Shown: piece after piece, positions 613-52,724 of the stretch
Numbering within the stretch: the first letter of the stretch is position 1
Layout of the letters: the number at the start of each line of letters is the position of its first letter
From: Rhizophagus irregularis
Lineage: Eukaryota > Glomeromycota > Glomeromycetes > Glomerales > Glomeraceae
NCBI RefSeq assembly: GCF_026210795.1
Contig: NC_089459.1
Span: forward strand, 2,728,001-2,792,000
Direction of reading: 5' to 3'
DNA: 64,000 bases
Notes under the pieces: generated by a model
What the model was told of the DNA's origin: nothing
Seen by the model: the letters and a program-made list of their open reading frames with translations, nothing else
The model's database searches: none
Position numbers and translations under genes: made by a program

Positions 613-3600
613 TTAATTAACAATATCTCCTATGACAGTGTTTCTCTTCAGAATTGTTTCGACAAATATTGTCGATTTAATTGGCTTGTACCTTTTTGTT
701 TTAACATTTTCTTTTTCGTTATTTTCGTTAGTAGCCTCGGCACAACCTTCAAGTTTTTTAATGTCGCTTGATACAACGGACAGTGGAACATCGTGCCAAT
801 ATGGAGATCCGTTATTAGATAATTGATATATCTAGATAAGAAGTCGTTATTTGTAGGTTTTGTATTTAAAAAAATGGCATAAGAAAAAAAATTTACCATA
901 TCATTTTTTTCAAGATAATATATAATATTTCGTAATGTTGACGATGCCCACAATGTAGATCTACTACCAACAATGATCAATTTGAATTTAGCGCGAGTTA
1001 TTGCAACATTTATCCGTCGATAATCTTCAAGCAGGTTTCCAACCTTGCAAATATTAAGAATTAAAAATGAAAATTTAAAAAATTTTAAAGGAATTATTAT
1101 TTAAAATCATTACATTTTTTACATTACCTTCAGATCAGAATTCGATCTCACAAATGATAAGACTATAACTTGTTTTTCCCTTCCCTGAAAACGATCAATT
1201 GTCGAAACTTCTAATTCATTATAACCTTTAAATTTGTGTGCAATATGTTTTAATTGAGAACGAAATGGCGTTATGATACCAATTTCTTTAGCAGCTACAC
1301 CTCCCGCTAATAATGCTTTGACACTATGTTCAACAATTAAAACCTCCATTTCATTTTGATATTTTCCATTTAATGCATATTCTTTGGTAAGAAGGTTATC
1401 CGTATTAATCATAATCAATGATCTTTTTGGATCAATTACATCCTTTAGCCAACAACTTTCATGACAGCAATAATAATCCGGGTCATGAAACTGGGAAAGA
1501 AAATCTTCGTTCCATTTAGGAATGTATAAAAGTGTTTGAGCCGTAATCATTGACCCGTTAAGCATCTTACTATCATAAATTATTGAATTGGATAAATTCA
1601 TAATGTCTTCATTCATTCTATATTGGTATCTTAAATTTGCAACTGCATTTGGATGAATTTCTGTAAAGGTTTTGAATAAACTCTTTTCCATTCCTTTCTT
1701 AATAGCTTCTGTTCTGAGTACTAAAGGTTGTAATTGATTATGGTCACCAACTAGAAGGAATCGGTCTGCAAAACGAAGTGGTCCAATACAAGTAGGTAAT
1801 GTTATTTGTGTTGCTTCATCGATGATACAATAGTCGAACCTTCGTTTAGTAAATATCGGACTATGTGAAGAAAAAAAAACAGACTAAGTAAAATTAGATA
1901 ATCCTTATGTATAAAATTTGTTAAATTTACTTATTCATCCCAAGGCATGTAGTTGCAACTACTCTTCTTGATTCAATGAACTCGGTGAATTCATCAAGAC
2001 TTTCAAATTTATTATTATCTATTATATATGGCCAATTATCTTTGTGAACTTTACTTTTATCGCCGATTCTCAATATTTCTTTACTGTGACCGTTTAGTTT
2101 TGAAAGGACATTATCAACGGCAGAATGAGTATAAGAAGCAAGAAGCACTGATTCACCTCTACGTAAAAGTGCTTTAATAATTTGGGCTATAGTAAAGGTT
2201 TTTCCAGTTCCCGGCATCCCCAAAATTAATGCATAATCTTCGGCTATATGATTTATTTTTTATAATGGTTGTCAATATTTGTATGTATTTTTTTAATTAG
2301 TTTTAATTTAATATATTTTAATCATACCCTTCAAAGCCAATTCAAATGCATTAATCTGATCTTCATTCAAATCTTTTTTAAGATCATTATAATTTGTTAG
2401 AGTAGAAAAAGTTCGACTATATCGTGGTGCATCAAGATCAATAATTAGTTGTCTTAACCTTCTAGTTGAATCATCCATAAGAAGACTGACAAGATTTTGT
2501 CGTACTAATTTTATACTAGAAGTCAGCTCATCACGATCAATTCGATAAGAAGTTGTGGCCAAATCAAATCCTAAAGGATTTTTTATTATTTCTTCTTTTT
2601 TCGATCTATCTTGTAACCCTAAAAAACTGTGACAAGACTCTATATCAAAGTCTGTTGCGTGTTTCGGACCTCCACGAGGTTTTTTATCCAAAGTTAGACA
2701 AATATAATCTGGTGTAATTTCAGTCACAAAGCCAGTAGATAAAGCATAATGTCCTTGTTCAGAAGATACAACAACAAAATCATTGATACAGAATTGAGTA
2801 TCCAATAATGATCTTCCTTTAGAATCTATTTGAAAAAATTTGCAATTGAGTTGACATAATCCAGTTGACCCTGGAAATTCGATTATACTATTCAAATCTA
2901 AATGCATGTTATAAAGGCTTTGGGTAGGATCACTATTTGAACGTGATGTATTCCATATTTGTGGTCGAATCTGGTTCATATTTTCTTCTTCTAACTTAAT
3001 TAATTCTTCCCATTTTCGAAAGAATTCAACGTGATTTTCTTCAAGATGTGCAGTAGCATTATCAAAGAGTTCAACAACGCCAGATTCTTCTGATGTACCT
3101 TTTTCGAAAGCCTTATTGTAAAGAAAGCATGTGGACCTAATGTTACATTTACCACATACATAAGAATCTTTAATCATTGGTGGCAAAATATGCCGTTGTC
3201 GATTTGAGATATACCATACAATTTCGTTACGAGTCTTTAGTATTTCTCGCAATTCTTGAACTGATACATGAATTCTTTTTAATTTTCCTGCCTTTTGATC
3301 ATTACTGCTTTTTACGTAATAAAGTAAGCCTGATCCGACATCAACTTTATAATGATCATTCATCATTACGCAGTATAATATTGTTTGTAAATTATGAGCA
3401 TGATCCTCCTTCCAAGCAGTTTTTATTTCTAACGGCATAATATATTTTTTCAAAGTCTTGTTTTCTAAAACTTTGACCTCAATTGAAGCATCTAAAACTC
3501 CTTTGAGACCGAATGCTGGAGACCAAATACGTTCCTCAACATCCAAAGTTTTACTGATACAAACAAGTGAATGTTCATCGCCTCGAATGCTTTCGATCTT

Positions 3601-4605
3601 ACCCAAACCAAATTTTGGCACTTGACCGATATAACATTCAGCAAAATTATGGTATATGGTTTTTCTTTCCGATAATTCTTTAATAACTTTTGATTCTTTT
3701 AAATTAGCAAAGTATAATTTTGGGATATTTTTTTTCATAATTTGTTTTAATGTCAAATCCATATAAGATGATGAAAAATCATTATGTTTTAAACAATCTT
3801 GGAAGTACTCGTGACTAAGAGTTCCAAGAATAGCAGATGCGGTATTAAAATTGCCACTACTTATTCGCTCCTTTAAAATAGCCCTCCTCATACAACCGTA
3901 TGCTTCACTAACGCAGGTAGATGATACGAGTATATCAGGGTTGACAATTATAATAACATTGTTCGTATCGTTCGCTGTGCATGTCCTATGTTTAAATTCA
4001 CCAAAAATACTAACGGTATCATCTGTATTGATTGGGTAATTATAACGTTAAAAATGACCAAATAGCAATGATTATACAAATTTTTTTTTAAAAAAAGAAT
4101 ATATATATATATTTATATGTACAAACTCTTAAAAATCTTTGTATCCATCCAGGAATCACACAAATTGAGCAAAAATTCTTCCAAATTATTTTCATTTATT
4201 AAAGTCACTTTCTATAATTAACGAAGTCAATAAATAATTTTAAAATTTATAAATAATAATAAATTATTTTAATATAAATTGATCGATCACCTTGGATTTG
4301 TGTGTATCTTTTACGTCAACTACCAAAAGGTTATGAATCTTGGAAAGGTTTTGAAAAGTAGGTTTATCTTCGTTTCTTTCTAAATTATCAATATTTTCTT
4401 TCACTTTTTCATTATATTTCGTCGCTTGTATTTTTATTGACTTACAATCACCAGTTAATTGAACTTTGTTGTGTTGAACGTTTTCAAAATTTTCTTTATC
4501 TTCTATTTGGCGTTTTAACGCTTTTCGTGATTCCTCAACGAAAACATTCTCTTTTTGACGTGTCAAAGTCACTAAAGAAGCCTCAGGTACGTGCTCATAA
4601 GACAT
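613..4605 (-). CDS. DNA2: DNA replication ATP-dependent helicase/nuclease DNA2
   Basis: DNA2 trims long Okazaki flaps and resects double-strand breaks in the nucleus. Seven exons: 4291-4605, 4127-4211, 2328-4022, 1931-2243, 1128-1860, 897-1043 and 613-831. They total 3507 nt, in frame, 1168 aa, close to the human protein (about 1060) and shorter than budding yeast (1522). The nuclease part shows a GTLSHEYF histidine motif, an Asp in GVLDAS and PLEIKTA, the PD-(D/E)XK core. The Fe-S cysteines are visible as CVSEAYGC and CGKCNIRSTC. Helicase motifs follow: Walker A GMPGTGKT (residues about 707-714), IIDEAT, GDHNQLQP, STIDRFQGREKQ and RRINVAITRAK. The first exon starts at MSYEHVPEA, and its N-terminal region is poorly conserved, as in other DNA2 proteins. 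All key residues are present, so the enzyme is predicted active. Confidence 0.95.
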
Positions 4606-5069
4606 AATTCAATGACTCTTAAAACTCCTTATAAATAAGATCGCTTTATGAAAAACGAAAATCCGCAGGAACGAAGTCAGGTATTTATTAAAATAATTAT
4701 TTAGCACCAGGATGTGTCGTTTAAGTATCAAAAGTTACGTAACGCGTCTATTGTGTAACTTAATAAAGTGAGCTTGCACGTTTTTTATATCCGGTATGAA
4801 TTACGCGATTTTTAAAAACCATATTTAGGAGATATTCAAAAGAAATATTTTTTTATTAACAAGAATAAAAAAAAAAATTTAAAATAAAAAAATTTAACTC
4901 TACAATCAAATATAATTTTTTATAAGTACATATTAAATAAAAGATAAAGAAAGAAAAATATTATATTTTTCTTTTCTAATTCAATAATAATATAATATGA
5001 AAAAATTTTCTATACAAAATATTAATAAAATAAATATTCAACGTTAGATTTTAATAACTTTAATGAATT
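4606..5069. other. DNA2 upstream region
   Basis: This 464-bp spacer lies between the DNA2 start codon and the stop codon of the next minus-strand gene. It should contain the DNA2 promoter. The half near the large gene is A+T homopolymer-rich. No small gene or repeat is evident. Confidence 0.5.
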
Positions 5070-7405
5070 TTATGAAAATTGTAAATAACGTAAATATTCG
5101 CCATCATTTCTTTCACTTCCATCATTATTTTGGTGAGTGAGTATTCGACTTTCAAATCTATTCGCGATACTATTAACTACACTGTTTACATTTAATTCTT
5201 TTACTTCATTAGTAGCAATTGGTTCATCCTTTGTTAAAGATGTTGATTTAATGTCCGTTAAAAATTCATGATTTTTCGGTATTGACTCTATATAAGATTT
5301 TTCAAAGTAAAGATTCTTAAAAGTTCCATTTGTCTGAGGCTTTGAAACATTTCCAGATGAGATAATCTTTAAACCTGTAGTATTATCGTTAGTTATTTTT
5401 TGTTGTTCTAAACCAATATGTTCATTGTATTCATCTAAACCATGCGAATCTTGTCTCCTTTTCAATTCCAGACTACTTCCTTCAGATAGACTTGAAGCTC
5501 TAGAACGTGTTTTACGTTGAAGAGTAAACAGATCTGCCCCTAGTTCCGTTTCATCCTTCTTTAGTTCAGGTTTCTTAGTTTTTTTAAGGGTCGGCCATGT
5601 TGGAGGAAGAGGAAGTGGTGGTGGACGAGCTGATGATGAAACAGATAATGGAGGAGGAGGTGTAGGTCGTCCGGATGCCGATTTTGATCGAGTAAGAGGA
5701 GGTCTCGATATCATTGGTGAATTCAATGACAATGAAGGTGATTTTAATGTAGGTGAATTTGTGGAATTTGTGTTAGAAGTAGTTACAACATGTGTAGATA
5801 TTGGTGAGGTTGATATTTTAGATACAGGACTAACAAGTGGTGAAGTCGTTGTTCGGGATAAATTTTTTGTAGAGATGACTGGTGTAGGAAATTTTTCTTT
5901 AAAAATAGAAACCGAAAAGTGCGATGCTGATTGAGGGGTTGATGGAACTGATAAGGGAAGAGGAGGAAGTGATGACGGAGAAACGGGAGGAGAAATTTGG
6001 AAGGGTGGTGAAGAATTAGTTTTTTGTATGTTAATCAATTCTTCATAAAGTGCAGTAGGAGATTGAGGTTGTGCATATAATGTCGCTTTTTTCAATTCCT
6101 CAAACAATGTCGGTGAATTCAATTGAGGTGTTGAAGGTCTCGAATTTTGAGCTGAAGGTGAAAATTGTGGAGTTGATGGAAATGATGAAATTGTGTGTAA
6201 TGGGGTTTCTGATGATGGAGAAGACAAAGGAACTTGGGGACCGTTAGTTTCTATTTCTGATAATTTCTGAGGAACAAGCTGGGGTGTTGGTGGTGATGAT
6301 TGATGAGATAAATCGTGAGGAAAATCAGGAGTTTCAGGTCTTGAGGTCTCAGGTGAAAGTGAAAGTGAAAATTCAGCTGGAAAATATGGCGTCGAAGGTG
6401 TTGGAGGAATTGATTGTGAAAATAGAGGAGGAGGAAAATGTGGAGTGGAAGGAACTGAAGAAGAAAACGAAGCATTAGAAAGCGACGGTTGAGTAAGAAC
6501 AAGTCCACTTGTTGGTGTTGACGGAGGAGGATTAGGATGAGGTGTTGATGGAGAAGATGAATCTCTTGATGATAATGGAGTATCAGTAGCTGAAGTAGTA
6601 GTGGTATGAGTCGTAGAAGTACAAGTTGAAGTAGAATTGGATGCAGCCAATGTATTATTCATTGAATCTTCAGAAACTATCGTTAATTTTTTATTTGATG
6701 CGCTCAAAGATTCTATATTTTCGTCAATTGCAACATCAACATCCATAATAGTATCAGCTCCATCAACTTTTTCCAAATCAATATTAAATGATTCCTTTTC
6801 TTTAATGATTTCATCCTTATTTTCACTCTTATCTATTGGATCTATTGGTGATTCTTCTAGTATTGCATTAACGTTAATATCTTCCTCTTTTTCATTCACA
6901 ATAGTGAGTTTTAAAGCTTCATTATTTATATTATTTGTAGAAGTTTTATTGTTGTTTTTAATATTACTTTCCTCAATACGTAATGTTATAGAAGTATCTG
7001 ATTCCAATTGTGATTTTGACTTATTTTCAATAATATCAATTAAATTTTGAAATTCTGGATCAACTTTTGATATTAATTTCGGTTCTAAAATTTTACTTTC
7101 ATTCTCAATAATATTTTTGCTAACTTCGACATATTCATTAGTATTTTCAATCTTATCAATTTTGTTTAAATTCTCTTTTTCAACATTACTATAATCATCA
7201 AAATTTTCCGCTGAAATAACAACATCAACATTCTTTTTAACTTCTTTTTGTTCAGAATTCGATAATAACACATTTTCTTCTAATTTATAAGATTGAACTT
7301 CCGTTTTTTCATCCTCAATTTCGGCAGATTCAAGGGTAAATGATGGAATAATTGGATTAAGTTGATGAGATTGATTTGAAGGAGTAGGAATTGTAATGGT
7401 GATTG

Positions 7406-7453
<48 letters not shown>

Positions 7454-10400
7454 TTTCTTCTTCAATTTGAAGTTCTTTCATTTTCTTTGTTTTAGACGTA
7501 AGATTTTTATTATTTTCTAAACCACCTTTACTTTGAATATTAAGAAGATCGGAAGATTCACCATAATTGATTTGTTGCTGTTGTACATTATTATTTCGAT
7601 TTCCTCCAAAACCAAAAGTTCTCATGAGACGATGTCCGGCGGATCTCTTTCTTGCAGGTAAAATACTTGTTCCTCCTGGAGAAGAAGCATTTGATGAAAT
7701 CGATGAAATTGTAGAAGATATTGAAGAAGAACGATTTATCGTTGGAGCTACAATAACAGGTGATGAAGCTAAATATGCTGCTAATACTGGTGGAATAGAT
7801 CTAGAATAAGATTGAGTGGAATTCTGTTTATCATTCTGTTTCTTTTTCTTATCTTTACTATTATTATTAGATATATTTGTATTATTATTGTTATTATTAT
7901 TATTATTATTATTAACTTCATTATTAGTAGGTATTGGAATTCCTAAGAAATTAATATGATTCCAAGCACGATCAGGTGCATGAATCATAACATCTCGAAG
8001 AATTTCAATTTGTGAAACTGTATCAGAAGAAAATTTTGAGTTGGTAGATAATCTTTTTCTATTGACACTATTATCTTCATCAGTACTATTATTGGAAAGA
8101 CTTAAATTATAAACCGAAGCAGCTCGACTTGGACCAGATCTGGAAACATTAAGAGTCATTGGTCGTCCACCAAAACTATAAGCTTGCATTGTTCTTTGAC
8201 GATCCCATTCAATAGCTGTCATTGTCCAAGAAGAAGCATTCCATTGTTGTCTCAAAGTAACAATTTCATCACGAATAACATCAATAGCTTGCTGAATTTT
8301 ACGAGCATCATCAGGAACTTTATTAAATTCATCAGGATCAAAAAAGAAATCCTCAAGATTTTGTTCATTTACTTCAGAAAAATTATCAACTTTTTGTAAA
8401 CGTCTAACTACTTCTTGAGTAAAATAAGTTTTTGAAGCTTGTAAAATTTGCATCGCACGACGAGAACAAGCATATAATGAAGTATTAAAGGTAGCATGTT
8501 GAAGAGCATCATATAAAGGAAAAGGATATAACATACATAAACGAGAATAGTAAGGACCACGAATTTGATGTGGTTGACGCATAGGTTTCACAATTAAAAT
8601 TATACGAATGAAAGGTCTAATTGTATTTCCAACGTTAAAAGAGGTAATTGAAGAAGATGCAATTTCTTCAGCAACAGAAGTTGCACCACCTGTTGAAGTA
8701 CAAGTTTTAACCATTGAACCACCTTCATCTTCATCATATTCAGATTCTGGAGCACTTAATGACATTTTAAAAATTTTTCCTTTATCATCATCATTATTAT
8801 TTAATTCTTCATCTTTTACTATAATTTCTATATTATCATCATTATCATTATTACCATTATCATCAGCATCAATAACATAATTTACTTCTTGATCCTCCTC
8901 ATTATATTTGATAGAATTTCGAAATGAATCTTTTGAAACTTGTTCCCGTTGTTGCTGTTTTCGTTTCTCAAATTCTAATTCTTTTTCTATTTGAGAATCT
9001 TCTTTTTGTTCTTTTTTCTCATCATCATCATTATCATGATTTTGATGTTGTTGCTGTTGTTGTTGTTGTTGTTCTAACTTATTATTACTATTATTATTAC
9101 TAGTACTTTTATAAAAGTTTTTAAATTTATTATTATTGTGATTATTATTATTATAAATGTTATTATTATTATTATTATTAATAATATTTGGATCTAAATA
9201 TAAATCATTTTGAGATGATGAAGAATTACCATTATATTGATCAATTATATTATCATCTAATTCACCCATCATAGTATACATTTGATTAGTTTGTAAATCT
9301 AAATAAATATCAACAGTTTGATCACCATAAATATCACCAGATTCCCAATTTAAATTAGTATCAAGTTGTAATTTATGATAACAATCTAAAAAAGAAGATT
9401 GAAATTGTCCTAAAGATGATTTATTATTATCTTGATCAGATCTAGTAGCCATAGCTAAATCCATGAAACAATCTTGACTTAAACAAGTTAAAGATTTAAT
9501 CCAACTTGCTTCTTCAGGAGTAATAGTAGCTTCATCCCTTACTTTACCTAAAGGAATGAATTGTTTACGATCTTTTGGTACTAAAATTTTAATACCTTGT
9601 AAAGTACTTTCAGTATATAAAACACCTAAATAAAGTCCAGGAGATAATTTTGTTTGACGAGAACACCATTTTTCAATAAAATTAGACCAAACAGGATGAG
9701 GATCTTTTTGATAAATAGAACTAGTTTCATCAAAATTTTTCCATTTTAATACACCAGATTTTATGAGATCAGGAGCTATTTCATCTTTAATACAATTTGG
9801 TACATGTTGAAGGGCTACAATAAATTTTGATTTTGAAGTATTCATTTGTACGACATGTTCATATAAAGTTCCTAAAGATTCTAAAGATAATTCATTCTTT
9901 AATTTTAAAGCAGCTTGACCAAAAGAACGAGTCCATAAAGTATCTTGATCACCATAATATTGAGAAGAATTATTATTATCAGAAGAAGAATCAGTAGTAC
10001 CAGTATTATTTGAATGAGAAGAATGTAAAGAATCCGAATCATCATCTTTATGATCAAATTCAGATGAAGTAGCCCAATCCAAAGAAGTTCTTATAACATG
10101 AGCAAATTCTTCACTATCATCTTCAAAATTGGTAAATATTTTACTATCTTTTATTACATCTACAGTAGGAAACATTTTAGTACCTGATGTAATTAATATT
10201 TTATTATCACTTGAAAATAATATAGCAGTTAAATAAACTGTTTCAGGATGAAAACGCGTTTTCAAAGATGTTTTAGTAGTACTAAAAACTCCTCTTCGTT
10301 TTGTTTGTACGGTATTATTTGTTGATAATGATACTTTACGCTAAAAAATTTGTTTAAAAAAAAAAAAAATGAAATTGATTAAATATATGTAAAATAAAAA

Positions 10401-40483: not shown

Positions 40484-42810
40484 TAGGGTGTCCAGGATTT
40501 GACGATCATGATTTTATAGCGATTTTGGCCAAAATTTTGCGATTTTTGCGATACCGCGATTTTGGCCAAAATTTTGCGATTTTCGCGATACTCAAATATG
40601 ATTGGCTATTTAGACACTATAAGTCACGTGAAATCGTGAATGTATCGCCGATAATAACCATTGATAATCTCTTTTTTTCGCTTAGTCATTTTTAATAAAA
40701 TGGTCGCGTGTCACATACGTTTGTCTCAAAGTGCCGAGTATCGTGAAAACTATATCGTACAAGAAAACAAACTATGGTGTCGATTTTGCAATGTAGAAAT
40801 TGATCATGAAAGAAAGAACTCTGTAGATAAACATATTAAAACATTAAAACACCTTAATAATAAAAACAAGAATAATTCTAATTTGTTAATCCAAAGAACT
40901 TTACCTTCTTTTGAAAATACACTAAATGAACGAGAAAAAATTAATAAAGAGATAGTGGAAGCATTTACTTATGCAGACATTCCTTTGGAAAAAATTGAGA
41001 AATTAAAACCATTTTTATTAAATCATTGTAAAAATGGTATGTATTTTCTGCTATTTCAATTTCAAATTTGCCTTTTTTATTTTTATTTATTAATATATTT
41101 TTGTTTATAGCGGGCTTAATTACTGGAGCAAATCAACTTCGTGAGAAATATCTTCCATTATCATATGAAATAGCGCTCCAAAAATTGAAAAATGATGTCA
41201 TCAATAAAATTATTTGTTTGACAATTGATGAAACAACAGATCGTTGTGGCCGGCATGCTGTTAATATATTATTTAGTTTTGATAATAAAACTAAATTAGC
41301 TAAAACAGAATTTTTGTCTAATGTTAACGCTTCATCTATTTCACAATTTGTTATGAATACAATTCATTTTTATAATATTTCTTATAAAAATATTATTTTT
41401 TTTATTTCTGATAACGCTTCATACATGAAATTGGCGTATTCAAATTTATCTTCCTTTTTACCAAATTTAAAACACAATTGTTGCTTAGCGCATATCCTTA
41501 ATTTAATTGGTGAAGCATGGGTAAACTTTCAAAAGTTTGAATTGGTTGACAAATTAATTATAAATTTTAAATCGATATTTACTTATAATTCACAAAGAAA
41601 AATTCGATGGAAGGAGCATTTATTACAAAATGGTATTGAATCACCTACTTTAGCACCCCTACCAGTAAAAACAAGGTGGAATTCATGGTTTTTATTTTTA
41701 TGTTGGATTAAACCTTTATATTCTCATTTAATAACTTTTGTTACTGCAGAATATTCTATTAATCATGATTCAAAAGCTGTTCGAGATCTTTACACATTTT
41801 GTCAAAACAGAAGCCATGTTTTTTGCGTTAAAATATTTATATATTTTATTACATATAATAGCAAAAGGTAAGTGAATTTAATGGATTTAATAATTTTATA
41901 ATAATATTACTAATATAATACTTTATTTATTTAGATTAATCAATGATTTGGAATTCTTTAAAATAAGAAACAAGGCTATAGCTCCATTTGTTTATTCACG
42001 AATAGTATCTCTTCAAGCTTTTTTATCATCAGGAATCAGGAATCCTCCAATTTCAAATGAAATATTCCAATTATTAAACGAAGAAAATCAAGATATTGCA
42101 TCTTTTGTTTCATTATTTTCTAGAGCTTTTATATTGGCAAATGAAAAATGTGAGAAACATATATCTCATCATCCAGCTTTATTATTTTTCAAAGCAATAC
42201 AATGTTTTGATCCAAGATTTATTCAATCTAATTCATCTAATCATAATATGGAAAATTATAGAATTATCAAAGAATTTTATCTTCCTACCTGATACTTTAA
42301 TACAAGAATGGGCTATTTACTTTGACTTAATGAATCTATTGAAGAGTTTGATGATTTGGATTTGTATTGGCGAGGTAAAAGACATATATTACCAGAACTT
42401 AGTTCACTGGCTTTAATATATATATGGTTGCCAGTATCTGGTGTAGATATTGAACGTAGTTTTTTTAGTTATAAAAGCATTTTATCAGATAGAAGAGTAG
42501 CGCTTAAAGAAGAAAATATTCAAATGCTTAATTTTCTTTATTTTAATCTTAGTAATAATGATGATTATAATAATGAATTGATGATTTATGAATAATATAA
42601 ATGTATAAATTTATTACTTAATTGTAAATAAATAAATAAAATTTGTATAGAATATAAATTATTAAAAAGTTTTTCATAATCGGAATTATGTTAATTCTGG
42701 CCAGAATTATGGTAATTCTGGCTGAAATTATGGATCACGATTTTCATGATTTTTGTGATTTTTCACGCCTGATTTTTGGGCCATCACGACGTCAAATCCT
42801 GGACACCCTA
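40484..42810. mobile_element. hAT transposon (2.3 kb) with 8-bp target duplication
   Basis: The ends are TAGGGTGTCCAGGATTTGACG and its inverted complement. The flanking 8-mers are GGGGTGGG (40476-40483) and GGGGTAGG (42811-42818), 7 of 8 identical, as expected of a hAT target duplication. Near both ends are GATTTTGGCCAAAATTTTGCG-like and GATTTTTGTGATT words, typical subterminal repeats. The plus strand carries a broken hAT transposase. Confidence 0.88.
40700..42595 (+). pseudogene. hAT transposase, frameshifted near the C-terminus
   Basis: Exons 40700-41036, 41111-41867 and 41935 onward. The N-terminus has a BED-like or CGG-binding-type zinc region (WCRFCNVEIDHERKNSVDKH, HIKTLKH). The catalytic part has TIDETTDRCGRHAVN, FFISDNASYMK, CCLAHILNLI and TRWNSW. 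The hAT dimerisation end is intact as sequence (PVSGVDIERSFFSYKSILSD) but lies in a different frame. Two frame changes, near 42275 and near 42330, separate it from the main frame, with a TGA in between. It can therefore no longer make a full protein. Confidence 0.85.
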
Positions 42811-43088: not shown

Positions 43089-45326
43089 CTAGTCTTCATC
43101 TGACTGAACTTCGCGATAATCCAAAATAACTTTCTGCCATGAGTCTTGTCCTTGGATTATATCTTCTGCAACATTAAAATTTCGAAACGGAATAACTACA
43201 CATTCCAATTCTGTTTTGTTATGAGTTCTTTTTAATTGCTTGTTATTTTGAGAGTGACGTTTAGAATGTACGTTGCGTTTATGTTCCTTCATAAATTTTA
43301 GAGTTGGAAAGTATTTACCGCAAATATTACAACACAGCCGCTGGTGTAGTTCTTGTGAAATTGAAGGACAACAACGGTCATATGGTAAGATTTTAAGCTT
43401 ATCATAATATTGAAGGGCGTGAATTGGATTAATGAAATGACCGTCTTTTTCTTTTGTAATCGGAGGAAGGAATCCGTCATTTTCATCCAAAAGTAACATT
43501 GCATCTGTGGCTCTATTTTCACTACAACATTCCCGATTTTTACATTTTTTTATATCTAGTGAATAGCGGCAAATTTGTGCATGGTTCTCTATCCATTCCC
43601 ATGATGTTGAAGAATCAAACTCATTAAATGGAATTATTTCCTTGTCAATATATTCCACTATTGCGGGCTTTCCATGTATGTCATCTCTTCTCCATATATC
43701 ACATAATCTTTTTCCCAAAAACTCAAAATTTCGTCGTGCTAATTCTTTATCTATTACATTACCTTGACTATCTAGATGTGAACCGAACTCATTTACAGGT
43801 AAAGTGATACTGGCAAGTTTTGCAGATAAAGAAGCCATACCCCGTTCTACTGGATTATATGCACTTTGACCTGGAGCATGAGTACAAACTGTTAAATAAT
43901 CCAAATTAAGAGCGCGAAAAAGGTGAGCATATTGAATAATATTTTTCATATGCTTTGGATTTTCGTCAGGTCCACCATCAACAAGAAGGATCCAAATAGG
44001 TTTAACTTCATCATCTTTTTTTATGATAGTGAAAAATTCTTCATTAGAAACAATGCTTTCTAAATCCGCTATATGGGTTTCTGATGATGTTCCAATAAAA
44101 TATTCTGGTCTAATGAATATGGAAAGTTTACCAGTTCGAAGAGTATTACTTGAATCAGTTGGATCAATAGTTAGATAAACAGAAGGTATGAGTTTCATTT
44201 TTGAACCAACTGGAAAATCATGATCTTCAATAATTACTGGTTCGTTAACAGTTTGAACTGTCTTAAATGTACGGCCAACTGCAGGTGTTCCTAATCCCAC
44301 CTTTGCCTTATTATCTTGGGAAATAATAACTGCTTCATTCGCAAAAACTTCAGCAAACATTTTTGCAGCTTTAACAGAAGCTAAACAATAGTGTTCATCA
44401 ACATGAGATTTCATTTCTGTTCGTGCTACAGATGCGAGACTAACTTTTGCTGGATGATGATGACGACGCGCTGCAAAAGTATTTTGATGGTGGGGTTGGA
44501 GATAAGTAGACAAGCATTGACGAGATAGATAGGTATTATATTTTTCTTCTAAGGCTTCGCGTAGATGCTTTACCGTTCTTACTTTAATAATTACTTTTCT
44601 ACATTTAGCATGAGCAGCTCCAAATTCAATACTATCATAAATCTTATCCCATAGATCTGGGTCTTTCATAGCTGCAGATGGTCTTCCTGGAGTATCATAT
44701 TTTTCTACAACTCCTTCTTCTTCTAGCAACTTTAATTTTTTCGTTGTTAACTTTGCTTGTGCACCAGCATGACGTTTTAATTTATTTAGTTGAGCCCTTT
44801 GTTCTGATAATATTTTTTGTTCATCAATTATTTTTGATAATAGTGTAACTTTTATTAAGTCATCTGTAGAAATTTCCATCATTTGTTCATATTCAGATAT
44901 CTTTTTAATAGCTAAATTGATTTTTTCAGCTGCATTACGTTATGATGTAGCATTTTTTGGTATTTTGGTAGTATCAATAAATCCAACTAATTGTCTTGGA
45001 GTAGAGGTGTATTTTGGAGTGGAGGTATGATAAAAACTACTAGTCACATTACATGACACAAAAATTTTTTGATGAGAATGAACAGTAGAAGGTACAGTAT
45101 CATAATATTCACAAATTTTATTTTCAATAAAAGTGGTGTCATTTTTTCTAACTTCTTTCCAAACAGTTGTACACTCTTCCATTAGTTGCTGGCGATTTAA
45201 CTTTGGATTACAGAGTGTTGCTTGTTTGTAATATGCATACGCGTTGCAAACCTCTTGATATTTATTTTGAGGTTGTTTAAAAAAAAATTTTTTATTAAAA
45301 TTCGGACCTTTCAAAAAACTTTGCAT
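43089..45326 (-). pseudogene. DDE/E transposase with C2H2 finger, one in-frame TAA
   Basis: A single reading frame of 746 codons is broken only by TAA at 44940-44942. This gives a 128-aa N-terminal part and a 616-codon remainder. Probable catalytic residues are Asp in IISQDNKAKVGLG, Asp in LLVDGGPDENPKH and Glu in NPVERGMASLS. A C2H2 zinc finger follows (CNICGKYFPTLKFMKEHKR, then H). The N-terminal part is basic and has a helical KYQEVCNAYAYYKQAT stretch. I cannot name the superfamily. The frame is otherwise open and well kept, so the stop is either a recent mutation or bypassed. It lies inside the 5.1-kb element in antisense to the nested hAT gene. Confidence 0.75.
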
Positions 45327-47003: not shown

Positions 47004-47539
47004 TACACACAATTAATTAATTTCAATTTATTATAATTATTTGTAATATTAATATTAGTCTGAAATATTCTATATAATTAATATATTATGATAATTAATT
47101 AAATTTTTAAATAAGAATTTTATTTAACATTATGGATCTACTGGTCAAAATTATTTCTTTTGGCATTAATACCTTTCATCAAAAGTTCATCATCATTATT
47201 ACGTAATTTGTTAAACATTCGGCCAATTATAAAAATCGAAAAAAAAATTAGCATAAATCAACTGGTCAATTTTTGGTCAATTTTTGGTTGAATTGTAACA
47301 TAAAAAAAACCATAAATTGACCAATATTTTTTTTTGATCAATTTTTATTAATAACAACAATTGACTTGACAATTTTTAACAACCTTAAACAAAATTAAAA
47401 TATTGAACCATCTAAATAATAGCCGAATACTTATTGAAAAGTAAAACTTAAATTAGTAATGATTTACATTTGACTCCCTACGATTTAAATAGACTTTTGC
47501 CATAAAAGTCTAAATTAGTTTCTTTTAATCAGGTTCAGA
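47004..47539. other. Intergenic, short direct repeats
   Basis: This stretch contains tandem GGTCAATTTTTG words near 47268-47290 with inverted partners downstream (AAATTGACCAATA). No gene is seen. Confidence 0.35.
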
Positions 47540-47679
47540 TTTTTTAAGTTTGTTTTTTTGTAGTTTCTTGGAATTTATTTTTGTAGGTCGTCTCAGTTCG
47601 TTTTGACTTCTGGACTTATTTTTTTTTCTTTTTGTAGGTTATTTCAGTCTGGTTTCTTCTATTTGGACCTTTGACTTGT

Positions 47680-47748
47680 GTCCTGAAGGCTCAACGGTAG
47701 AGCATACGATTTAGTCGTAAGATGCAGGTTCGACTCCTGCTCAGGATA
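47680..47748 (+). tRNA. tRNA-like gene, anticodon UUA (possible UAA-reading)
   Basis: It folds as a cloverleaf: acceptor GTCCTGA with TCAGGAT (seven pairs including one G-T), D arm GCTC-AACGGTA-GAGC, T arm GCAGG-TTCGACT-CCTGC and discriminator A. The B box GGTTCGACTCC is perfect. The anticodon stem has only four clean pairs (TACG/CGTA), with loop ATTTAGT, which puts TTA at the anticodon. Position 8 is A instead of the nearly invariant T. So either it is an unusual suppressor-type tRNA or a decayed tRNA-derived repeat. It lies inside the T-rich repeat domain. Confidence 0.55.
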
Positions 47749-48060
47749 ATAATATCCTTTATAGGTTGTTTCATTTTAGCTCTCAAACCAGAATTTTCTA
47801 TTTTGTAGGTTTTTCGTTTCGACTCTCAGACTTGGATGTTTTTGACTTCCAGATTTGGAATTTATTTTTTATAGGTTATTCATTTCGGTTTTTGGACTTT
47901 AGCTTGGAATTTCTTGGAATTTTTTTATCTTGTAGGTTTCTTCATTTCAGTTTTCAGACTTGGGCTTAGAATTTATTTTCGTTTCAGTTTCTGAACTTAG
48001 AATTTCTTTTTTGTAAGTCAGTTAATTTTAGTTTCTGGACTTGGAATTTTCTTTTTTGTA

Positions 48061-48304
48061 GGTCAGTTCATTTCAGTTTTCAGACTTGGAATTTCTTTTT
48101 TGTAGGTCGGTTCATTTCAGTTTCTGGACTTGGAATTTCTTTTTTGTAGGTCAGTTCATTTCAGTTTCTGGACTTGGAATTTCTTTTTTGTAGGTCAGTT
48201 CATTTCAGTTTCTGGACTTGGAATTTCTTTTTTGTAGGTCAGTTCATTTCAGTTTCTGGACTTGGAATTTCTTTTTTGTAGGTCGGTTCATTTCAGTTTC
48301 TGGA
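48061..48304 (+). repeat. 44-bp tandem repeat, about 5.5 copies
   Basis: Copies start at 48061, 48105, 48149, 48193, 48237 and 48281. The unit contains GGTCAGTTCATTTCAG, TTTCTGGACTTGGAATTTC and TTTTTTGTA. Most copies differ by one to three bases. More divergent copies extend leftward to about 47760. Each unit contains a TTTTTTGTAG acceptor-like site. Confidence 0.9.
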
Positions 48305-48402
48305 TTTGAGTTTAACTCCTATCAGTAAATAGGTTTTTCTTTTGTAGGTACGCTTCGATTTTAGGATTTGGGAGTTTTGGAAAGATAGCGTTTTAATATT
48401 AC

Positions 48403-48471
48403 ATCCTGAAGGCTCAATGGTAGAACATATGATTCAATTGTAAGGTGCAGATTCGACTCCTGCTCAAGACA
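48403..48471 (+). pseudogene. Decayed second copy of the tRNA-like sequence
   Basis: It aligns base for base with 47680-47748 (shared TCCTGAAGGCTCAA, GGTAGA, TTCGACTCCTGCTCA). It has mismatches in the acceptor stem, one in the D stem and two G-T pairs in the anticodon stem. The loop ATTCAAT would give anticodon TCA. It is probably a non-functional relative. Confidence 0.5.
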
Positions 48472-48833
48472 ATAGCTGATTCGTATTTGAACTTGAAATT
48501 TTGATTTTTCTTTGTAGGTTACTTCCGATTTATTGATTTTCTTTTTTATAGTTACTTTTGATATTTGCTTTTAATTTTCTTTTTGTAGGTTTTTTTCAAC
48601 AATTTTTTTCTTTGTAGGCCACTTCAGTTCCAATATTTCAGGTTTTTTTTTTAGGTGGTTCTTTTGGTAATATTAATAATGAACGATTACTAATAACCAT
48701 TCTTTCTTTTTTTTAGGTTCAGTGGACTTCCAAATTCTGAAGATTGGAAAAAAACCAAGATTTGTAAGTATATATGAATCTTGGTTTATTTTTTTGTTTT
48801 TGTTTTTTAATTTTATTAATGAATGGTTACTAA

Positions 48834-49130
48834 AGGACCCCGGATATCTCCAAAACAGGTCATAAGTCACACTTTCGGCAGATTGGCCCATTTTTCAGGG
48901 GCTCAAAAAATCGTTTTTTGTAAATATCTCGGCATCCAGTGGTCCAATTTTGATGAACTTTTTTTTAAATTGTAGAGCTAAATGAGGGCTACAAAATAAA
49001 AAAAAGTTCATTAAAATTGAATTACTGGATGCTGAGATATTTACAAAAAACGATTTTTTGAGTTTCAGCAAAAAGGGGTGTTTTTGGCCAAAAGTCCATT
49101 ATGACCTTTATATTAGATATCCGGGGTCCT
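48834..49130. mobile_element. 297-bp hAT-type MITE inserted in array 1
   Basis: Perfect 16-bp inverted ends AGGACCCCGGATATCT, flanked by identical 8-mers GTTACTAA (48826-48833 and 49131-49138). Removing it restores an intact hairpin A. A second inner inverted repeat (AAATCGTTTTTTGTAAATAT and its complement) makes it a strong fold-back. Confidence 0.93.
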
Positions 49131-49390
49131 GTTACTAATAACCATTCTTTTTTTTATTTTTTAGGTTCAGTGGGCTTTTGAGTCCAAAGAACAAAAAAAC
49201 CAAGATTTGTAAGTAAGTACAAATCTTGGTTTTATTTTTTTATTTTTTTTTAAAAAAAATATTATGAACGGTTACTAATAACCGTTCTTTTCTTTTTTTT
49301 AGATTCGGTGGGTTCCTGAAGAACGAAAACCCAAAGATTCGTAAGTATGAATCTTACTTTTTTATTTTTTTAAAAAAAAATATTATAAAC

Positions 49391-49573
49391 GGTCAGAGAG
49401 CTTACAGATATTACGTAATTATCAAAGGGGGAGGGGTAACTAAAATCTTACGTTACACTTAATAAAATATATAATTTATAAATATTATAATTTGATTGGT
49501 TATTAAATCTGACAAGAGAGGGGAGTAAGTTTATATTAAACTGAATATTACGTAATATATGTAACTCCCCTTA
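49391..49573. mobile_element. Probable MITE inserted in array 1
   Basis: Imperfect inverted ends of about 20 bp centred on ATATTACGTAAT interrupt a hairpin-A unit. The exact ends and target duplication are not clear. Confidence 0.6.
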
Positions 49574-50213
49574 TTAATAACCATTTTTTTCTTTATTTTT
49601 ATAGGTTCAGATGGACTTCTGAGTTCTGAAAATAGAAAAAACCAAGATTTGTAAGTATACACAAATCTTGGTTTTATTTTTTATTTTTTTAAAAAATATT
49701 ATGAACGGTTTTTACTAATAGCTGTTATTTTCTTTTTTATAGCTTTGGGTAGCCCGAAGAACAGAGAAACCAAGATTCGTAAGTAAGTACAAATCTTGGT
49801 TTATTTATTATTATTTTTTTAAAAAAAATATTATGAATGGTTACTAATAACCGTTCTTTTTTTTTAGGTTTCCATGAGCTTCTGAAAAATGAAAATCCAA
49901 AGATTCGTAAGAATCTTTATTTTTTTCCTTTCTTTGTTTATTATTACGAACGGTTTATTAACCGTTCTTATATTTTTTTTATAGGTTTAAGTGGGTTTAC
50001 GAGTTCCTAAAGAACAACGAAAAATCAAGATTCATAAGTAACTATGAATCTTGATTTTTTTTTAATATTAATAACGGTTTCTAACCATTCTTTTCTATTT
50101 TTTTTAGGTCTTGGATGTCTTAGGTGGGTTTCCGAAGAATAGAATACCCAAAGATTCGTAAAGACAGTATGAATCTAACTTTTATTTATTTATTTTATTA
50201 TGACAATTTCTAA

Positions 50214-50387
50214 GGGCAGTGACATATATTAGCTAATATTATTTTAATAGTAATGTTTACTCCCCTACCTCCAGGTAAGATTTTATGACCAATCACAACC
50301 ATTTCACATGGTTTATATTATGTGTAACCTAAGATTTTCTTTTACTTTCCCACCCCCTAAAATATTAGCTAATATATGTCATCACCC
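50214..50387. mobile_element. 174-bp MITE with TAA duplication
   Basis: The inner ends GACATATATTAGCTAATATT and their complement are perfect. The outer tips GGGCAGT and ATCACCC match partly. TAA flanks both sides (50211-50213 and 50388-50390). G-rich tips and a TAA duplication suggest PIF/Harbinger. It sits inside array 1. Confidence 0.8.
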
Positions 50388-50759
50388 TAACCGTTCTTTT
50401 ATTTTATTTTTTAGGTTTTGGGTTAATTTCCAAAGATCAGAAGAAAAGGAACCAAGATTCATAAATAAGTACAAATCTTGGTTTATTTTTATTATTATTA
50501 TTATTTTGGAACAGGTACTAACTATTCCTTTCTTTTTTTTATAGGTTTGAGTGGATTTCCGACAAATGGATGAACTAACAATAAATGAAGGAACCAAGAT
50601 TCGTAAGTATGAATCTTGGTTTATTATTTTTTTTTTAATATTATAGAACGGTTACTAATAACCGTTTCTTTCCTTTTTTTAGGTTTTGGGTGGGCTTCTG
50701 AAGAACTCTTTATACTTTTTTTAAAAAAAAATATTTTTTGTTAATTGTATTTTTTTTCT

Positions 50760-51790
50760 ATTTTGTAAGTTTCAGCCTTCAGTTATTGGGCATTGGATAT
50801 ATAGGTAAGTTTTGAAGTAAAACTTCAAAACTTTTTTTAAATAAAATTATTTTTTTTTAATTATTTTTTTGATTTTTTTTCTTCTATTTTGTAGAATTCG
50901 GCTTTCAGTTCTTGGGTTTGGATATATGGGTTTGTTTTGAAGTTAAAACTTCAAAACTTTTTTTAAAAACAAGTATTTTTTTAATTTTATTTTAATTTTT
51001 TTTTCTTTTTTGTAGATTTCGGCTTTTTATTCTTGGGGTTTGGATGTACAGGTAAGTTTTGAAGTAAAACTTCAAAACTTTTATTTTTGATTATTTTTTT
51101 ATTTTGTAGGTTTCAGCTTTTGGTTATTGGATGTTGAATATATTATATATAAGTTTCGATCAGAATGAAAGAATAGAAACTTTTAAAAAAAAATATTTTT
51201 TAATTATTTTTTTATTCTATTTTGTAGGTTTTAGCTTTCAGTTCTTGAGCATTAAATATATAGGATAGGTGAGTTTCGAAGTGAAAACTTTGAAACTTTT
51301 TTTAAATAGAATTATTTTTTTTAATTATTTTTTAATTTTGGTTCTTGAGCATTAGATATACAGGTGAGTTTCAGAGTGAAAACTTCAAAAATTTTTTTTT
51401 AAAAAAAATATTTTTTTTTAATTTTTTTTAATTTATTTTTCTTTTTTGTAGGTTTCGACTTTTGGTTCTTGGGCTTTGGATATATGAGTAAGTTTCGAAG
51501 AAACTTTAAAACTTATTTTAAAAAAAAAAGATATTTTTTTAATTTTATTTTTGATTATTTTTCTATTTTGTAGGTTTCGACTTTTGGTTGGATTTTAGAT
51601 ATATGGATAAGTTTCGAAATGAAACTTTGAAACTTATTTTAAAAAGGGATTTTTTTTTAAATTTTATTTTAATTTTTTTTTCTATTTTGTAGGTTTCGAC
51701 TTTCGGTTGAACTTTGGATATATGGATAAGTTTTTACTTCAGATTTTTGGTTGGGTAAGTTTCAAAATATTTCGAAACTTAAATTTTTTT
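50760..51790 (+). repeat. Array 2: exon-like units with GTAAGT-hairpin
   Basis: About nine units of roughly 110-130 bp. Each has a T-rich tract, GTAG, a short segment built on TTTCRGCTTTYRGTTCTTGGG and GGATATAT, then GTAAGTTT whose downstream bases form a hairpin (arms TTTTGAAGT and ACTTCAAAA, or TTTCGAA and TTTGAAA in others), and again T. Later units are more worn. The layout matches array 1 but the sequence is different. Two further worn units with ACGGTTTACTAACC lie at 51800-51960. Confidence 0.65.
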
Positions 51791-51994
51791 TATTAAAGAA
51801 TTGGTTTACTAACCGTATCTTTATTTTTTTTGTAGATTTTCCTTTGGACTTCTATTGAATGGGTAGGTTTTGAATCTTCAAAACTTTGACCTTTTTTTAT
51901 TGTAATAATAACGGTTTACTAACCATTTCTTTATTTTTTTTGTAGGTTTCTCTTTCGTACTTTTGTCAGATAGAGTAAGTCGTAGATAATTTTG

Positions 51995-52130
51995 AAGATA
52001 GTAGACGATGGTGGATGATGGATGGTGGATGACGAGTAGTAGATGATGGATGTGGATGATGGTTGATAATGGTTGATAATGGATAGTGAATGGTAAATGG
52101 TAAATGGTAAATGGTGGATAGTAGATGTAA
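51995..52130. repeat. GATGGTGGATGATGG minisatellite
   Basis: This is an imperfect tandem array of GATGGTGGAT, GATGATGGAT and AATGGTAAAT words. It marks the right edge of the T-rich domain and has no coding signal. Confidence 0.7.
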
Positions 52131-52469
52131 ATAGACAAATACTGTAGAATGTAAATATTAGATATTTAATATGATAATTTTTAATATGTAATTTTAATAA
52201 AGTGAAATAATAATAATCAATTGATTGTTATTACAAAATTAAAAATAAGCTAAATACATAAAATCATTAACAATTAGACAAAATTAGACTTAATTTCATC
52301 CAACATTTGGCAATTTGAAATTTGGACGAATGTCTAGTAAAAGTTGATAAATAGTTTATTTCCGATTTTTTAATGAAATTTTGCCAATTTGTGATTGCCA
52401 AATGGCAGGCAAACTGTACAAATCGTCCATAATAATTTTGACAATTTTTTTGGCAATAATTGGCCAAAT

Positions 52470-52724
52470 TTAGGCCAACTTTTGTCTAATATTCATCAAT
52501 TTGAAATTTGGATGAAATGGACTGTTCTGACCAGTAATACTTTCAACTGATTTTAGTTTTTTTCTTGAATAGTATCCAATATCATCATCATCATAAATTC
52601 CTTCAACCAATTTTAATTTTTTTTTTGAATGATGTCCAATATTGTCATCATCATCATTTTCTCTATATTTCTTTAACTCTTCAGTTATAATCGATAACAT
52701 CAATTCTTTGTATCCAGATCTCAT
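52470..52724 (-). CDS. Possible small hypothetical protein with internal duplication
   Basis: The 84-codon frame begins MRSGYKELMLSIITEELKKY. It has two copies of a 17-residue block (DDDNIGHHSKKKLKLVE and DDDDIGYYSRKKLKSVE). Composition looks coding at the start, but the stop lies in repeat-like sequence. It may be an exon or a remnant of a multicopy gene. Confidence 0.3.
   Translation of the reverse strand: MRSGYKELMLSIITEELKKYRENDDDDNIGHHSKKKLKLVEGIYDDDDIGYYSRKKLKSVESITGQNSPFHPNFKLMNIRQKLA

Follow-up and report, generated by a model that had tools for sequence, protein, structure and literature searches.

What is the tandem array of exon-like units that lies at 48678-50720 of a 64,000-nt stretch of the Rhizophagus irregularis genome (the window, C31:2728001-2792000; genome of 146.7 Mb in 32 contigs)? 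A first-pass annotation had described eleven units, each with a pyrimidine-AG acceptor, a segment of 36-49 nt and a GTAAGT splice donor in or next to a covarying hairpin (hairpin B), and had proposed a spliced-leader RNA gene array, a micro-exon non-coding transcript or intron-like units spreading in tandem. It had overlooked a branch-point motif, an enclosing transposon, three nested insertions and a second array (~50726-51750). The last of the three proposals is the best-fitting one, the units here being transposon-borne, and we are highly confident that such arrays lie inside CACTA-type transposons and are made of complete intron modules.

In the window, all eleven pyrimidine-tract-AG acceptors were found (AG ends at 48716, 49164, 49302, 49604, 49742, 49867, 49984, 50107, 50414, 50544 and 50682), but hairpin B is present in only ten units and the donor is intact in only seven. 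The ten exons that end at hairpin B (donors at 48764, 49209, 49341, 49651, 49779, 49907, 50034, 50158, 50461 and 50603) measure 47, 44, 38, 46, 36, 39, 49, 50, 46 and 58 nt, and the range of segment lengths is therefore 36-58 nt rather than 36-49 nt. Six of the intact donors read GTAAGT and one GTAAGA, three are decayed (ATAAGT, GTAAAG and ATAAAT), and the last unit has no donor. Seven of the eleven acceptors are preceded by an exact TACTAA located in the loop of a second hairpin (hairpin A) or adjacent to it, and the rest by decayed forms. The stem variants named earlier are present, except that the GAATGGTTA/TAACCATTC hairpin exists only across a nested insertion (48834-49130). The 5.4 kb element that encloses the array contains GTAAGT 16 times on the + strand and not once on the - strand, compared to a mean of 1.3 and a maximum of 5 in 200 first-order Markov shuffles of the element, and TACTAA followed by a pyrimidine tract and AG nine times (shuffle mean 0.15, maximum 2). 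The density of signals in this element is not due to chance.

The array is the interior of this element, a DNA transposon whose borders were set where genome-wide matches start and stop, together with the terminal sequences and the flanks (Table 1). The 3-bp flanks are ATC and ATA, which agree in two of three letters. This copy has a second type of end (TACTGGTCAAAA; family 2), with the variant termini TACTGGTCA...TGACCAGTA, and a blastn comparison (E 1e-4) gave no match between its ends and those of the family 1 elements described below. Despite the different ends, it contains type-1 units like those of family 1, as well as type-2 units and a 44-nt acceptor-only array. A type-2 unit consists of a TTTTGTAG acceptor, an exon of 33-41 nt and a GTAAGT or variant donor at the base of a hairpin AAGTTTTGAAG/CTTCAAAACTT; several of these donors are decayed in the window, and type-2 units have 155 matches in the genome. 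From 47563 to 48655, about twenty successive TTTTGTAG-type acceptors, eight of them in the 44-nt tandem array, were seen without clear donors.

The window copy is old and decaying, since only 7 of its 16 GTAAGT lie in a strong hairpin (score of 8 or more), compared to 13 of 13 at the array locus L012, and since it has received three foldback insertions. All three of these nested elements interrupt a branch-point hairpin (hairpin A), and foldback elements could have a preference for palindromic or TTA/TAA targets. Of the two tRNA-like sequences listed in Table 1, the first is a good tRNA match; ARAGORN found no tRNA in nine other array loci. Upstream of the transposon, there are open frames of other mobile elements, one at 40658-41871 (+) with a DUF659 match (E 2.4e-10) and one at 43089-44939 (-) with a weak DDE transposase match (E 4e-4, under its cut-off).

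Table 1. Features of the array-bearing transposon, in positions of the window.
Feature	Position	Strand	Remark
Entire DNA transposon (old copy) with family 2 ends TACTGGTCA...TGACCAGTA	47139-52536	+	ends are the edges of genome-wide matches
5' terminal inverted repeat TACTGGTCAAAA	47139-47150	+	
tRNA-like sequence within the element, anticodon tta (reads UAA)	47680-47748	+	58.3 bits; anticodon by ARAGORN
44-nt tandem array, acceptor-like TTTTTTGTAG then GT, no clear donor	47978-48308	+	
Second tRNA-like copy, decayed	48403-48471		29 bits; upstream of the type-1 array, inside the transposon
Type-1 array, 11 acceptor-exon units	48678-50720	+	hairpin B in ten; donor GTAAGT/GTAAGA and exact TACTAA in seven each
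Nested foldback insertion in hairpin A loop	48834-49130		8-bp duplication GTTACTAA
Best-preserved unit: exon 49165-49208, donor GTAAGT 49209, hairpin A TACTAA 49273, AG end 49302	49165-49302	+	fold z -8.6
Nested insertion splitting a hairpin A	49392-49570		borders approximate; read from sequence
Nested insertion splitting a hairpin A	50206-50393		borders approximate; unsplit hairpin seen in L027
Type-2 array, sequence unrelated to type 1, layout alike	50726-51750	+	borders approximate
Two more acceptors and TACTAA hairpins, exons of 27 and 29 nt	51784-51980	+	
3' terminal inverted repeat TTCTGACCAGTA	52525-52536	-	- strand reading TACTGGTCAGAA

A 231-nt probe gave at least 452 matches in the genome, and 20 loci of 9.9 kb were fetched and compared all-against-all. 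These loci are dispersed repeats that share sharp ends, CACTAGTCGAAAAAGG...CCTTTTTCGACTAGTG (family 1). The ends were checked in 26 sources (the 20 fetched loci, five further loci with elements and a joined stretch of 14.7 kb), a count that leaves out the window copy, whose ends differ, as well as L032 and L040. In 20 of the 26, the array lies between CACTAG...CTAGTG ends (CACTAGTCGAAAAAGG at both), and the other six have one end or none. Matching 3-bp flanks, as expected of a target-site duplication, were found in 17 of the 20 two-ended elements, a number which leans slightly favourable because the end-pair script favoured matching flanks where several pairs were possible and because L020 and L022 come from a single duplicated region (97.7% identity across 9.8 kb) and are hence not independent. 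The three exceptions with unequal flanks are L019, L020 and a C12 element of 14.3 kb. The 17 flank-matched elements measure 1.4-4.1 kb and carry 3 to 20 donor-like sites, the number of units differing among copies, and the smallest copy (L033, 1429 bp) retains a 5' exon, a few units and the 3' part. Searched with up to one mismatch, the terminal motif matches the genome 103 times and its reversed control not once.

A relative with coding capacity was found at L040, where an element at 809-7984 encodes Transposase_21, that is, tnp2 (PF02992, E 2.9e-11), and adjoins a truncated array element (174-808). Its first 140 nt are identical to the end of the array element at 126 positions; its own 3-bp flanks (CCA and AAG) are unequal, so that the borders of this copy may be rearranged. 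PF02992 has at least 155 matches in the genome, and for 5 of 40 family-2 5' ends such a match is located about 2.1 kb away on the opposite strand (positions compared by eye). Termini of the form 5'-CAC..GTG-3' and 3-bp duplications are described for EnSpm elements (PMC12730594). Their ends, their 3-bp flanks and the tnp2 relative with shared ends make it most likely that the array elements are non-autonomous members of the CACTA/EnSpm transposons, with tnp2-type transposases probably mobilizing them in trans. The loci L023 and L028 have inner parts in common with family 1, but not the outermost ends. As the ends of family 1, of family 2 and of these two loci differ, the module is found in at least two, and probably three, element types.

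The genome counts of the hairpin patterns (874 for B and 1140 for A) are not copy numbers, as the patterns are near-palindromic and both strands can match at two mismatches. The first 100 exact matches of hairpin A (contigs C1-C10) fall into 41 clusters, and the hairpin-A core had no exact match in the viral and bacterial/archaeal collections, as expected for a fungal repeat. One composite locus (L032, C25:1272900-1278700) contains three end motifs per orientation and 10 and 12 donor-like sites on the two strands, as if two array elements lay head to head.

We examined the layout of the units, which were called by script in 27 sources, 21 of which provided the intron and exon statistics. An intact unit has, in order, GTAAGT at the tip of hairpin B, the intron, TACTAA in hairpin A, the pyrimidine tract with AG, and the exon, and exon-like units with a donor hairpin, as first described in the window, are thus confirmed across the genomic copies. 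In yeast, the classical branch-point sequence is TACTAAC. With the script's motif list, 242 of the 268 called units could be assigned both a branch-point motif and an acceptor. The introns are 74-102 nt long, with 18-29 nt from the branch-point A to the end of the AG, so that donor, branch point, pyrimidine tract and acceptor follow one another in the order and at the spacing normal for a spliceosomal intron. The same layout is found in the first intron of family 1, made from other sequence (read directly).

The exons (22-74 nt, 171 distinct among 242) have lengths that spread evenly over the three remainders modulo 3 (84/76/82 for 0/1/2, n=242), indicating that no reading frame runs across them. 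In the predicted spliced RNAs, the models of which skip decayed donors and therefore contain a few long 'exons', the longest ORFs of four close copies are 123, 86, 123 and 173 aa. A coding array, such as a repeat-protein gene, was rejected, given the frameless exon lengths and the variation of these ORFs among close copies. We also looked for retroposed spliced copies with a single exon-exon junction pattern, which covers exons starting G[A/T]TCGGGTGGGCTTC; it had 0 matches in the genome, compared to 685 for the unspliced acceptor pattern, and such copies were rejected within this scope. At L012 (2700-4000, family 1), the first exon is pyrimidine-rich, and a long purine-rich repeat of the GAAAGGGGAAGC type in a later exon could pair with it. 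The flanks of this locus resemble coding sequence, seemingly that of another transposase-like gene (by eye).

This unit structure bears directly on the spliced-leader reading. As in spliced-leader RNA genes, a short exon ends at a donor within a stem-loop, here at the tip of a covarying one, and a U-rich stretch follows (read directly). However, a spliced leader needs a 5'-terminal exon of fixed length without an upstream acceptor, whereas here a branch-point motif and an acceptor lie upstream of exons that vary in sequence and in length from 22 to 74 nt, and the units are located within mobile elements. In the intact copies L012 and L033, Rfam gave 29 matches at E 5 or lower, none of them to a spliced-leader family; the best match, L20_leader (E 0.011, 30.3 bits compared to a gathering score of 58.7), was taken as a chance match to T-rich hairpins. 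We therefore consider a spliced-leader array extremely improbable. The micro-exon non-coding transcript may also be true, alongside the tandem intron-like units.

The layout suggests a transcript that runs left to right, with terminal and subterminal repeats, then a first exon, the modules and a last exon. In the models of six copies, the predicted first exon measures 370-378 nt in four, and the last exon measures 424-425 nt and contains four AATAAA in five. These models argue against the possibility that the whole element is an intron of host transcripts, removed from the mRNAs of the genes into which it has inserted, as reported for the maize En/Spm termini. Plant CACTA ends are reported as intron ends (PMC4219821), and the flanks are coding-like, by eye, at least at L012. 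However, at least about 370 nt separate the 5' end from the first predicted donor, and about 425 nt separate the last predicted acceptor from the 3' end, so that most of the two ends would remain in the mRNA after splicing, and a long array would be unneeded for such a removal. Hence, the anatomy of the predicted models disfavours excision of the entire element from host mRNAs, and we regard this reading as improbable.

We then examined the placement of the splice signals relative to hairpins. On the + strand, GTAAGT lies in a strong hairpin in 12 of 13 cases at L023, 10/12 at L028, 11/13 at L014, 9/13 at L018, 8/10 at L024 and 20/22 at L026, in addition to L012 (see above), these per-locus counts including the locus flanks. 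In the controls, counted on both strands, such placement was seen for 1 of the 23 GTAAGT elsewhere in the window and for 3 of the 62 within the outermost 2.5 kb of the long loci. Branch-point sites lie in hairpins in 15/15 cases at L012, 10/14 at L023, 13/18 at L028, 5/12 at L014, 7/8 at L018, 8/10 at L024 and 13/15 at L026, and in three of nine in the window element; the controls gave 0/3 in the rest of the window and 5/9 in flanks, which may contain bits of elements. The donor is at or beside the tip of its hairpin although the loop length differs (GTAAGTAC, GTAAGTAAGTAC, GTAAGAATC and others), and the branch point is in the loop. RNA folding of four type-1 units of the window gave z of -2.6, -8.6, -5.1 and -4.0; among nine units folded in total, seven had z from -4.0 to -8.6, the exceptions being the window type-1 unit at -2.6 and a lone type-2 unit at -1.6.

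The covariation claimed for these stems was assessed on 352 hairpin-B sites from 27 sources, which gave 223 distinct stretches aligned by sequence only (44 columns), and was compared to 200 alignments of the same 44 columns and 223 sequences simulated with independent columns on the inferred tree. In the 14 stem pairs, 186 Watson-Crick cells had changed on both sides, above the null (mean 80.8, sd 20, maximum 179), while the summed mutual information of 1.36 compares to a null of 0.75 (sd 0.17) with a maximum of 1.50, at least one simulation being higher. Pairs shifted by 1-3 columns gave 45-83 paired changes and a mutual information of 0.60-1.06. Three pairs were equalled by at most 3 of the 200 simulations, and eight of the 14 showed no excess over the null. 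The covariation of hairpin B is thus real for the family, as first proposed, but is carried by few pairs, and for hairpin A the one pair that was counted (57 C-G, 8 T-A, 7 T-G, 5 C-A and 1 A-G) is weak. G-U mismatches moderately exceed A-C mismatches in hairpin B, by 70 to 48 (59 to 35 in the exon-side pairs alone, p 0.017, with units that are non-independent), but not in hairpin A (19 to 17), and these counts do not clearly point to RNA structure.

These data are to be weighed against a simpler origin, in which a CACTA transposon picked up a splice-competent fragment that then multiplied as an ordinary tandem repeat in its interior, with hairpins that are kept at the DNA level and an intron layout that has no present function. 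Internal tandem repeats are common in transposons, and the difference in unit number between copies is in line with such an origin. The stem changes include flips that look like one step (A-T to T-A), with few intermediates, and the hairpins might arise or persist in DNA, for instance by template switching at palindromes. In addition, the donor G decays as its neighbour does: among 299 distinct contexts, the donor G and the adjacent exon C, which form a CpG at the splice junction, were each lost 51 times, where the motif permitted G/A at the first and fifth donor bases and left further losses uncounted. This equality means that no constraint on the donor is visible in the extant copies and resembles neutral decay. 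However, amplification of this kind leaves unexplained why at least three unrelated types of unit have a common order of donor hairpin, branch point and acceptor, as well as the orientation on one strand in the window element (16 compared to 0 GTAAGT). We regard a passive tandem repeat as a real possibility, although short of an even chance.

Mainly because one layout was rebuilt from unrelated sequence, in type 2 and in the first intron of family 1, we prefer function over mere copying. The chances seem to us evenly balanced that the cargo of these non-autonomous CACTA/EnSpm transposons is a non-coding transcription unit with many introns. The transposon class, the complete intron layout, the lack of coding, the hairpins and the excess covariation of hairpin B can be read from the sequence itself, and from them we infer transcription, splicing, unequal exchange, a role of the hairpins and any benefit. 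Transcription would begin in the 5' part of the element and proceed to the AATAAA signals close to its 3' end, and the host spliceosome would excise tandem, self-contained introns of 74-102 nt from between very short exons; that the host splices the array transcript is, in our estimate, about an even bet. The hairpins may present each donor at a tip and each branch point in a loop, which would keep near-identical neighbouring sites distinct. The length of the array would shift by unequal exchange and the arrays would spread by transposition of whole elements, a possible benefit being that the transposon RNA would resemble that of a host gene. Against such a many-intron transcription unit stand the absence of matches to the spliced junction pattern, the donors that decay like their neighbours, the mismatch counts that do not clearly favour RNA, the eight of 14 hairpin-B pairs within the null, the five of nine flank-control branch-point sites in hairpins and the z of -1.6 of the type-2 unit.

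The array elements resemble known CACTA/EnSpm transposons in their CACTA...TAGTG ends, 3-bp target-site duplications, subterminal repeats and a tnp2-coding relative with common ends, but differ in that their interior is an array of complete intron modules, in which donor and branch point are each hairpin-borne. Among the literature matches listed on splicing and transposons and on this fungus, no intron-module arrays inside CACTA elements were described. Maize En/Spm and soybean Tgm are CACTA elements reported to have splice sites at their ends or close to them (PMC4219821, which cites Menssen 1990). Like them, the present elements are predicted to interact with host splicing; however, the ends of En/Spm and Tgm make one intron, whereas here up to about twenty introns are stacked internally. 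Introners are described as intron-generating transposons, some with inverted repeats and target-site duplications (PMC9860276). They are likewise mobile DNA with spliceosomal splice sites, but here the introns are internal and tandem and the whole element is the mobile unit. As far as we have seen, tandem introns inside element ends are absent from both the plant CACTA splice cases and the introners.

Hosts distinguish their own RNA from transposon RNA by splicing, and a transposon that contains a row of introns would be a natural experiment in this respect. In Cryptococcus, stalled splicing reportedly feeds RNAi. Human HUSH is reported to silence intronless mobile elements, introns giving protection even when unspliced (PMC8770142). 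Since HUSH spares intron-bearing RNA, a passport made of introns is thinkable, in which a non-coding gene composed of introns, with hairpin-presented donors and branch points, would by steady splicing avert the silencing of intronless or poorly spliced RNA; we know of no such system in this fungal group. We consider such a passport unlikely, and selection on the transposon for the number or quality of its introns, or for passing as host RNA, appears similarly doubtful. The near-identical introns would also be a ready set for testing the effects of donor and branch-point hairpins on splicing. Finally, this kind of genome is reported to contain repeats that remain unclassified (PMC11075540), and the array elements would give structure to part of them.
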